Assembly: GCA_013141055.1 (NCBI GenBank)
Contig: JABFRS010000001.1
Coordinates: 1,364,001 to 1,428,000, forward strand
DNA: 64,000 nucleotides
Direction of reading: 5' to 3'
Source: Cyclobacteriaceae bacterium
GTDB lineage: Bacteria > Bacteroidota > Bacteroidia > Cytophagales > Cyclobacteriaceae
The notes below the pieces were generated by a model. It saw nothing but the letters and a program-made list of their open reading frames with translations. It was not told the DNA's origin and did not search any database. The translations under genes and the position numbers were made by a program. Below are positions 23,991 through 28,959 of the stretch, in pieces. How positions within the stretch are numbered: the stretch's first letter is position 1; each line of letters begins with the position of its first letter.

Positions 23991-24440
23991 TTAAGACGCT
24001 GTTCCCGGCAATGAAAAGAAACCACGCTTGGCCATAGCAATTCCAACCAAAATCAAAAGCAAAGCAATTGAATTGAAAATGAGCATGCGTTTATGTTTTG
24101 CCGTGCCATCTGTCATTTTCTTGGAAGTAATTCTTGCCATAGTGATGAACCCAATCGCAATTAACATAATCACATTATGCTCCATCGTCCAATAGCGAAG
24201 AGTAGCGTCCTTCATAGTGCCACCGCTAAACTGCACAAACGGACTAGAGAAGTAAAGAATAATACCGACGAGCAATTGGGTGTGCGTAACAGAGAAAAGA
24301 GAAAGACCCAGAATATTATCAACTTTAGTGAAAGCCTTCTTTCCGGAAAATCCCAGAAATGATTTTACAATAACCACCAGTAAAAGGATCAGGACGAAAT
24401 AGCGTAAAAACGAATGGGTGTGAAGTAGTCCCGGATACAT
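23991..24440 (-). CDS. Four-helix membrane protein with conserved histidines
   Basis: This is a 149-residue integral membrane protein with four predicted helices: about residues 10-30, 43-64, 88-103 and 120-138. Histidines lie at the start of helix 1 (H7, H9), in helix 2 (H53) and at the start of helix 3 (H88), a spacing that could ligate haem as in cytochrome b561-like proteins. That is inference. The protein resembles a Bacteroidota family usually annotated as conserved membrane protein. A TAATTTCG box 26 bases upstream could be its -7 element. No partner gene is adjacent. Confidence 0.7.
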   Translation of the reverse strand: MYPGLLHTHSFLRYFVLILLLVVIVKSFLGFSGKKAFTKVDNILGLSLFSVTHTQLLVGIILYFSSPFVQFSGGTMKDATLRYWTMEHNVIMLIAIGFITMARITSKKMTDGTAKHKRMLIFNSIALLLILVGIAMAKRGFFSLPGTAS

Positions 24441-27006: not shown

Positions 27007-27024
27007 AAATTTCGATTTTCCAGG

Positions 27025-27063
27025 AAAGAAAGATATCGGGTAATCTCGGTATCTTTCTTTTTT
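27025..27063 (+). terminator. Strong intrinsic terminator, 10 nt before the next ATG
   Basis: AAAGAAAGATATCG at 27025-27038 pairs with CGGTATCTTTCTTT at 27047-27060, a 14-bp stem with one G-T pair and an 8-nt loop. The run of T continues to 27063. It ends the S9 peptidase transcript, yet the next start codon is at 27073, so it also lies in the leader of the channel-like gene. Confidence 0.85.
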
Positions 27064-27072
27064 ATACCCCCT

Positions 27073-28011
27073 ATGAAACAACTCTTCCTGCTTCTCATTT
27101 TCGCGTGCTCTTTTTTATCATCAAAAGCACAGAGTGCCGATACAGTAAAAGTTGGCGCCTATATTATCAGTGTTCATGATATTAATTTTCATGACAAGGA
27201 ATACACCATTCGTTTCTGGTTATGGTTTTTATACAGTAATCCGGAATTTAATTTTCTAAAGCAACTTGACATCCCTAACGCAAAAGAAATAGACGAGCCG
27301 GATATTGTAGAAGACAGCGTGAACGGGAAAAAATGGGTGCAGATGAAAATGAAATGTACCATGAAAGAAAATTGGGTAGTTCATAACTTCCCGTTTGACG
27401 AACAGCACTTGAGAGTACGAGTTGAGAATTCTGTCTTCGACAAGAATAGCCTAATCTTTCTTGCTGATAAAAGGCATTCAATGTTTGATGATATTGAGGG
27501 CCTTGATGGATGGCATATCAAGGATTTTAAAGTTTCATCTGACACAACTCGTTACGGAACGGGCTTTGGTGACCCACGGGTTGGCCATGACTCTCAGACC
27601 TTCTCTACGTTTAAGATAGACATGAATATCAAGCGCGATGCATGGGGACTTTTTATGAAAATCTTCATTGGAATGTACATCGCCTTCCTTATTGCCCTGA
27701 TCAGCTTTGTATCCTTTCCGTGGGAACTGGAACCTCGCTTTGGGTTGCCAGTCGGTGGTCTGTTTGCTGCGGTGGGTAACAAATATATTATCGATTCACT
27801 GCTTCCGGAATCTCCGGAGTTTAGTCTGGTTGATACGCTGCATAGTATAACTTTCTTTGGAATCTTATCCGTTCTGGCTGTTTCGGCGATTTCTCTTAAG
27901 TATTTCAATGCCGGAAACAAAGAAGCTTGTCTGAAAGCTGACAAGATCGGATCCCGGATTGTAGCGGGAGCTTTTGTACTTTTGAATATCTATTACATTG
28001 CCTCTGCCTAA
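27073..28011 (+). CDS. Pentameric ligand-gated ion channel-like protein, copy 1
   Basis: This 312-residue protein has a signal peptide (about residues 1-20), an extracellular beta-rich domain to about residue 185, and four predicted helices. FPFDEQ at 106-111 is the conserved loop of Cys-loop receptors, here without the disulfide, as in bacterial GLIC and ELIC. R188 sits just before helix M1, as in the receptor family. The segment RFGLPVGGLFAAVGN then LLPES (P245) and FSLVDTLHSITF matches the M2-M3 pattern of these receptors. The C-terminus ends directly after M4. The length equals known prokaryotic channels. M1 lacks the usual proline, so channel function is inferred. Confidence 0.7.
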   Translation: MKQLFLLLIFACSFLSSKAQSADTVKVGAYIISVHDINFHDKEYTIRFWLWFLYSNPEFNFLKQLDIPNAKEIDEPDIVEDSVNGKKWVQMKMKCTMKENWVVHNFPFDEQHLRVRVENSVFDKNSLIFLADKRHSMFDDIEGLDGWHIKDFKVSSDTTRYGTGFGDPRVGHDSQTFSTFKIDMNIKRDAWGLFMKIFIGMYIAFLIALISFVSFPWELEPRFGLPVGGLFAAVGNKYIIDSLLPESPEFSLVDTLHSITFFGILSVLAVSAISLKYFNAGNKEACLKADKIGSRIVAGAFVLLNIYYIASA

Positions 28012-28014
28012 CCT

Positions 28015-28959
28015 GTGAAAAAATTACTATTCACCATTTCCATTTTATTCAGTTCTCTGATAGCCAGTGCTACGCCGCCTGATACTGTGCGTGCAGGTGC
28101 ATATATCATCAGTATTCATGATATTAACTTTCATGATAAAGAATACACCATCAGGTTCTGGCTTTGGTTTCAATACAGCAACCCCAACTTCGATTTCAGC
28201 AAGCAACTGGATATTCCAAACGCAAAAAGCATTGACCCACCAGAAATCATCGTCGATAGTATTGACGGCAAGGCTTGGGTGATGATGAAAATGAAATGCA
28301 CAATGAAGGAGAGCTGGGAGGTCGGCGATTTTCCTTTTGATTCACAGCATCTGAATGTTCAGATTGAAAATACGCTCTTCGATAAAAACACACTCGTATT
28401 TGATCCTGATCTTGAAGGAAGTCGTTTTGGAAAAAAGATTGCAATTGACGGATGGACCATCAGTAATTTTTCCGTGAATTCACAAATCAGTGAATATGAG
28501 ACAGGCTTTGGGGACTACAGACTTCCCAGTCAGCACACGGAGTTTGCGACGTTCAATATTGACATGAATATTGAACGTGAAGCCTGGGGCTTGTTTATGA
28601 AGATCTTTATTGGAATGTACATAGCCTTCCTGATTTCTATGATCAGCTTCACTCCGCATCCATGGGAGCTTGAGCCAAGATTTGGATTGCCAGTCGGCGG
28701 TTTGTTTGCCGCGGTTGGAAACAAATATATTATTGACTCACTCCTGCCGGAATCTTCACAATTCAGTCTTGTGGACACTCTTCATACTATAACTTTCCTG
28801 GCAATCTTTGCAACGCTATTGGTATCGGCGATCTCATTACGTTTGTATGATCGCGGGAGAAAAGAAGATTGTTTGAAAGTGAATAAATACGGATCTAGAA
28901 TTGTAGTAGGCGTTTATGCTCTTTTAAACATCTTCTTCATTTGGCTGGCAATAATCTAA
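28015..28959 (+). CDS. Pentameric ligand-gated ion channel-like protein, copy 2
   Basis: This 314-residue paralogue of the preceding gene starts with GTG 3 bases after its stop, so they are co-transcribed and probably coupled. FPFDSQ is at 106-111 and R188 precedes M1, exactly the same positions as in copy 1. The M1-M2 segment from AWGLFMKIFIGMYIAFLI to LLPES is nearly identical, whereas the extracellular domain diverges, notably around residues 130-170. This pattern fits two subunits of a hetero-oligomer or two channels of different ligand preference. Signal peptide 1-19. No ligand-producing gene is obvious next to them. Confidence 0.7.
   Translation: MKKLLFTISILFSSLIASATPPDTVRAGAYIISIHDINFHDKEYTIRFWLWFQYSNPNFDFSKQLDIPNAKSIDPPEIIVDSIDGKAWVMMKMKCTMKESWEVGDFPFDSQHLNVQIENTLFDKNTLVFDPDLEGSRFGKKIAIDGWTISNFSVNSQISEYETGFGDYRLPSQHTEFATFNIDMNIEREAWGLFMKIFIGMYIAFLISMISFTPHPWELEPRFGLPVGGLFAAVGNKYIIDSLLPESSQFSLVDTLHTITFLAIFATLLVSAISLRLYDRGRKEDCLKVNKYGSRIVVGVYALLNIFFIWLAII

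Follow-up and report, generated by a model that had tools for sequence, protein, structure and literature searches.

GLIC, the proton-gated channel of Gloeobacter, is a homopentamer encoded by a single gene. The Cys-loop receptors of animals are often heteropentameric, and their paralogous subunits differ in the ligand loops. For the pentameric ligand-gated ion channels (pLGICs) of bacteria, Tasneem et al. (2004; PMC549065) argued that they are homopentameric because most bacteria hold one gene; three versions were noted in Cytophaga hutchinsonii in the same paper. The pLGICs of unicellular organisms had no known biological role by 2016, according to Jaiteh et al. (2016; PMC4795631). A heteromeric prokaryotic pLGIC was absent from the literature matches listed, in a search with preprints and most subscription papers outside its scope.

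We describe here two such genes, A and B, that lie head to tail in a Bacteroidota genome, within a window of 64,000 nucleotides (the whole stretch of DNA that was analysed). Gene A (27073..28011, + strand), the accessory-type pLGIC subunit, begins with ATG and encodes 312 amino acids before its stop codon; gene B (28015..28959, + strand), the core-type subunit, begins with GTG and encodes 314 amino acids before its stop codon. At the junction (28009..28017, + strand) the TAA of A is followed by three bases (28012-28014) and the GTG of B, and the coordinates and translations thus bear out the sequence-only reading of two adjacent open reading frames of 312 and 314 codons with a 3-base spacing. 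No third channel copy was found in this genome (4.6 Mb, 98.8% complete), where the Neur_chan_LBD profile at E up to 1 likewise gave no matches beyond A and B.

That A and B are pLGIC subunits without Cys-loop cysteines is well supported, for the profile and structure matches, the predicted folds and the published list of hallmarks (PMC4795631, Table 1) all point to it, and the sequence-only reading of the pair as ligand-gated ion channel-like proteins has held. The Pfam profiles were an uneven guide: B scored 28.1 bits against Neur_chan_LBD (PF02931), above the curated cut-off of 26 bits, A scored 19.7 bits and fell below it, and neither matched Neur_chan_memb (PF02932) at E up to 1, these being the two profiles suggested for a check with the sequence-only reading. 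The NCBIfam models NF033918 (LGIC_1) and TIGR00860 (LIC) match both proteins with E from 1.5e-6 to 8e-11 over about two thirds of their length (residues 83-291 at the widest), with scores of 27-42 bits; the cut-offs are 500 and 280, which puts A and B outside the curated LGIC_1 and LIC families. Single-sequence searches against solved structures retrieved GLIC chains or a chimera of GLIC and the glycine receptor (best E 8e-5 for A and 1e-6 for B; 4e-6 for B against GLIC chains), and a profile built on an alignment of 65 sequences, in which A and B were joined by 63 rows of other loci with 50-88% identity to A, found the same GLIC and chimera chains at E 1e-11.

The predicted structures agree with these matches. 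AlphaFold2, run with an alignment, returned a model of A with a mean pLDDT of 89 and one of B with 86; each has a signal-like helix at the N-terminus, nine strands and, towards the C-terminus, four long helices (in A, M1 191-213, M2 219-241, M3 252-279 and M4 283-311), which is the layout of signal peptide, beta-rich domain and four helices that had been proposed, and the predicted monomer fold of both is that of a pLGIC. Foldseek was run on the A model only; it gave 1106 matches in the PDB at E up to 0.001, and the best 50 of the 1106 are GABA-A, GLIC, glycine receptor and GluCl chains (E 8e-20 to 9e-19). A beta-sandwich with four helices is found in the AlphaFold2 models of A and B and in the Foldseek result for A.

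The hallmark residues of the family are in place. The F/Y-P-x-D motif of the beta6-beta7 loop is F106 P107 F108 D109 in both proteins, within a Pro-loop at residues 106-111 that reads FPFDEQ in A (27388..27405, + strand) and FPFDSQ in B (28330..28347, + strand); P107 and D109 occur in 65/65 aligned sequences and position 106 is F in 56 and Y in nine. The beta9 aromatic is W147 (65/65), which aligns with a GLIC tryptophan and starts the strand at 147-161. The pre-M1 arginine is R188 (65/65; 27634..27636 in A and 28576..28578 in B, both + strand), with M1 beginning at 191, and the M2-M3 loop proline is P245 (65/65). The Pro-loop motif, R188 and the M2-M3 block do lie at identical positions in A and B, as had been claimed. 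At position 14' of M1, where 77% of pLGICs have proline and 5% the listed substitute glycine (PMC4795631), the proline itself is absent and the hallmark is represented by G200, which is invariant in the 65 sequences and aligned to the GLIC proline. In an ungapped alignment of the 65, M2 has the basic residue at 0' and the leucine or phenylalanine at 9' that are expected from the family, in which 0' is basic in 79% and 9' is L in 75% or F in 13% (PMC4795631, section 7). No cysteines of the animal type flank the beta6-beta7 loop in A or B; those of A are at positions 12, 95 and 286 only.

The pore helix is nearly constant across the 65 aligned sequences. M2 spans residues 219-241 in A (27727..27795, + strand) and 219-243 in B (28669..28743, + strand), and when it is numbered with R222 as 0' in the ungapped alignment anchored on the M2-M3 proline, the consensus of the 65 sequences is EPRFGLPVGGLFAAVGNKYIIDSLLPES. 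Positions 3' to 7', 9', 10', 12' to 20', 22' and 23' are invariant in 65/65, including P4', G6', G7', G13', K15' and the phenylalanine at 9', while -2' is E in 59 and D in six and 0' is R in 64 and K in one. In the genus rows E or D stands at -2' in 53/54 core sequences, and F at 9' in 53/54 core and 18/18 accessory sequences. The acidic -2' together with R0' suggests from sequence that the channel is cation-selective. Glycines at 2', 6', 7' and 13' with a proline at 4' are unusual for an M2. Residues 216-247 are identical between A and B.

Over their 309 aligned residues A and B are 65% identical without a gap (E 6e-154). The sequence-only reading had called their membrane parts nearly identical, and this applies to residues 188-258, which comprise M1, M2 and the start of M3 (87%), but not to M3-M4 at 259-312 (56%). 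The extracellular domain (22-187) is 63% identical and its part at 126-187 only 44%. The likeness of A and B in M1-M2 is nothing special to the pair, for this region is conserved across the 65 sequences. Four-fold degenerate sites agree at 15/40 in the membrane part and 6/24 in the extracellular part, so the membrane likeness looks like constraint at the protein level; recent gene conversion of the membrane part gains no support from these sites. Values of dN lie at 0.08-0.25 for comparisons between the five A genes and at 0.09-0.30 for those between the seven B genes, while dS was undefined (-1) in 30/31 pairs and read as saturated; both genes appear to be under purifying selection and seem to be kept by it.

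Our findings point to two separate lineages of channel gene. A scan of contigs gave 128 relatives, from which 80 loci were kept, the source of the 63 rows aligned with A and B; all their record titles are Bacteroidota and mostly Cytophagales. The tandem arrangement occurs in at least 4/80 loci (L003, L006, L007 and L018), a lower bound imposed by contig ends, and a further locus, L070, holds a single gene that a frame change has broken in two. A tree built from 87 proteins puts the A genes, five in all, in one clade (support 100/91) and the seven B genes in another (100/99), with no sister relation between the two. A falls among other genes of accessory type (10 rows, 100/99), and a tree with A and B constrained to one clade was rejected (p-AU 0.013). 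A recent tandem duplication was considered and the trees and the AU test are against it; by these sequence comparisons A and B are no fresh tandem duplicate.

The division can be followed through the genus of the window, where 55/62 genomes searched have a match. Of 79 extracted rows, 74 entered the genus tree, and five that were fragmentary or weak were dropped. The deep forks are weak; a branch with support 100/99 divides a core from an accessory side. The core comprises 54 rows, exactly one per genome in 54 genomes, and includes B; the accessory side comprises 19 rows in 14 genomes, A among them, and one distant outlier (L190 of G030, about 32% identity) that was counted in neither class. 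A 15th accessory genome, G354, is known by a fragment. This and the dropped pieces from G006, G001 and G005 have their closest counterparts among accessory rows, that from G031 (about 24% identity) is nearest to no class, and a 74-residue match in G374 lay outside the extracted rows. No accessory gene was found in 39/54 core-bearing genomes. Accessory genes occur with a core gene in 14/14 genomes, a result with a chance of about 0.11 that is weak evidence since the core gene is in 54/62 genomes; as proof of partnership the co-occurrence is underpowered. Of the seven B-clade loci, two are without A: at L004 the core gene stands by itself with the same neighbours on both sides, and in L005, where A is absent, the S9 peptidase gene ends 50 bases before B. 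B thus does not need A. Broken copies, counted in draft assemblies, number 2/19 accessory (in-frame stops in G001 and G005) and 1/54 core (split by a frame change in G035).

Where accessory genes are unlinked to a core gene, they face a kup-type K+ transporter gene (PF02705) in 8/11 loci examined (L155 1698-4193 and L225-L231). In six of these the channel and transporter genes adjoin each other tail to tail, and in L226 and L228 they are separated by about 2.5 kb; at this site G361 carries a tandem of two accessory genes.

Several positions separate the lineages. Position 90 is M, I or L in 54/54 core sequences and in 0/17 accessory ones (Q in 16/17), 135 is G or A in 54/54 core and 0/17 accessory, 162 is E in 47/54 core and 0/19 accessory, and 214 is P, I or L in 54/54 core and 0/18 accessory; 251 is T in 52/54 core and S in 17/18 accessory, 279 is D or E in 53/53 core and N in 16/18 accessory, and 307 is Y in 0/52 core and 18/18 accessory. 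When loops are assigned by strand order in the models, counting from the Pro-loop as beta6-beta7, position 90 lies in the loop E strand, 135 in loop F and 162 where loop C starts; 214 is at the M1-M2 turn, 251 in the M2-M3 loop, 279 at the end of M3 and 307 at the end of M4. Presumed loop C, between the last two strands, is residues 162-174, with G162 in A (27556..27594, + strand) and E162 in B (28498..28536, + strand). Some of the fixed differences thus presumably fall in ligand-pocket loops and none in the pore, and core and accessory sequences do not differ at the Pro-loop, pre-M1, 0' and M2-M3 proline residues. The differences between A and B are concentrated at 128-181 (13/28; hypergeometric 0.0003 against an even spread), but 11/26 fall there between two other clades and 9/18 for B against clade c7, so this crowding was set aside as proof of A/B specialisation; two core sub-clades are likewise set off from the rest, at 12 and 13 positions. 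With other clades and sub-clades alike, the core/accessory differences are not special in their number or in their place alone. The notable point, as read from the sequences, is that the fixed differences recur in accessory genes of several loci, and pieces outside the tree from G354, G001 and G005 mostly have the accessory pattern at them.

Short distances from stop to start are typical of co-translated partners. In five genomes an accessory gene lies directly before a core gene, and in four of these the two are 1-3 bases apart or overlap: 3 nt in the window, 2 nt in L006, 1 nt in L007 and an ATGA overlap in L018, with 167 nt in L003. Upstream of A, 3' of the stop codon of the S9 peptidase gene, a hairpin of 19 pairs that ends in a T run (27022..27063, + strand; -22.6 kcal/mol) looks like a terminator. 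It ends nine bases before the start codon of A, so that hardly any visible space is left in which A could have a promoter of its own; on inspection by eye a shorter hairpin occurs at a like place in L007, and none was obvious in L003 and L006.

The wider neighbourhood has a recurrent member of its own. A gene for a 149-residue membrane protein (23994-24440, - strand) has a homologue in the upstream flank of 67/80 channel loci, in some of which an S9 peptidase gene lies between it and the channel. The protein has no Pfam match above cut-off and no NCBIfam match, and histidines near its hydrophobic stretches allow a guess that it binds heme. The gene is also present in 8/10 genomes without a channel match, once as a 40-residue piece, so it was rejected as a functional partner and appears to share a place with the channel.

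The best reading of the pair, and one that we rate as an even call from the sequences, is that A and B are made together and co-assembled as a heteropentamer. It starts from the two genes, their family and predicted monomer folds, the pore conservation, the lineages, the junctions and the low dN. B would be the core subunit and A an accessory subunit from a separate paralogue lineage; since A is placed directly in front of B, both are probably made from one message, and they probably mix in one pentamer that would face the periplasm. With M2 identical in the two proteins, mixing would leave the pore alone, with its acidic ring at -2', its phenylalanine at 9' and a probable selectivity for cations. 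What mixing would alter are the ligand sites between neighbouring subunits, as A is without the residues that the core has in loops C, E and F, and the binding of a solute at these interfaces would open the pore. The separate core and accessory lineages and the tight junctions in 4/5 pairs give the idea indirect support. Against it stand the two B-clade loci without A, the 39/54 core-bearing genomes in which no accessory gene was found, and the siting of unlinked accessory copies opposite a K+ transporter gene in 8/11 loci. Its fullest form is a bacterial heteropentamer of a core and a co-translated accessory subunit, with an invariant pore and differences at the ligand interface, that arose separately from the two-subunit receptors of animals; to this we give tentative assent, a shade short of even.

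The main rival is that A and B form two homopentameric channels side by side, neofunctionalised paralogues with the same pore and different ligands or sensitivities, and we regard this as a serious possibility, if short of probable. It would account readily for B without A in L004 and L005, for the single gene in most genomes of the genus, for the intact pore and hallmark residues of unlinked accessory copies and for an extracellular domain that varies more than M1-M2. Near-overlapping junctions in 4/5 pairs fit products made together, and the accessory gene never replaces the core gene in 54 genomes, a point of little weight when the core is near universal. One may also suppose that A merely tunes B, whether as a subunit with a regulatory or dominant-negative role or as a copy in decay. 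The in-frame stops in G001 and G005 would suit such a role, as would the departures at positions where at least 93% of 56 other sequences agree (2.8 per protein in the A clade and 1.1 in the B clade), but the pore and gating residues of A are intact, the five A genes differ by low dN values and a core copy, that of G035, is split too, and we judge this unlikely. Least probable, and very doubtful in our estimation, is that A and B are membrane sensors with the pLGIC fold that conduct no ions and keep a glycine-rich M2 for another purpose. The unusual constancy of M2 at P4', G6', G7', G13' and K15', the missing Neur_chan_memb match and a plain hydropathy scan that misses M2 of both proteins (and M4 of A) speak for it; against it, relatives that do conduct ions match the pair in the acidic -2', R0', F9' and the 23' proline, and in both models M2 is predicted as a full helix in place.

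If A and B do co-assemble, bacteria too build mixed-subunit receptors of the neurotransmitter-receptor family. The genus, with one core gene in 54/62 genomes, an accessory gene in 15 of these and the two joined in five, is a natural test system in which mixed bacterial receptors, the start of subunit specialisation and what such channels sense can be addressed.

Relatives of the pair are scattered more widely. A was matched in 55/291 genomes at the level of the order and the profile in 17/296 at the level of the phylum, the genome of the window included in both counts. Ten plasmid records, eight from Azospirillum and two from Streptomyces, hold relatives of 24-32% identity (E 6e-34 to 2e-23). 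A search of a phage collection gave no match, and a phage origin was set aside on this result. More distant pLGIC-like genes were seen at L190 (G030:C277), L192 (G031:C1), G050:C9, G051 and elsewhere, and some with open frames of about 710 amino acids may, to judge from their sequences, carry an added sensor domain. One Azospirillum relative (L121 3842-4882) lies near two genes for substrate-binding proteins and genes for a TPR protein and alanine racemase, a neighbourhood that recalls the published link between bacterial pLGICs and periplasmic binding proteins (PMC549065).

Set beside the systems with which we began, the locus shares features with each. What is new here, on the evidence of the sequences, is the existence of distinct core and accessory channel lineages, with A not a fresh duplicate of B. 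The single genes of the Azospirillum and Streptomyces plasmids have R0' and G2' in the four examined, as do A and B, but they lie in other neighbourhoods, and three annotated records examined call them 'hypothetical protein'. The animal glycine and GABA-A receptors resemble A in fold (TM-score 0.72-0.81, normalised by A, among the chains listed), and the glycine receptor part of chain 4x5t begins its M2 with R0' G2' L3' as A and B do; in contrast to these receptors, A and B have an acidic -2' and are without the Cys-loop cysteines and the long M3-M4 loop. GLIC is matched in sequence over most of the length and is alike in length, in fold and in its lack of Cys-loop cysteines, yet it is only 14-15% identical in the structural alignments listed, its M2 differs, and the locus described here has two genes.
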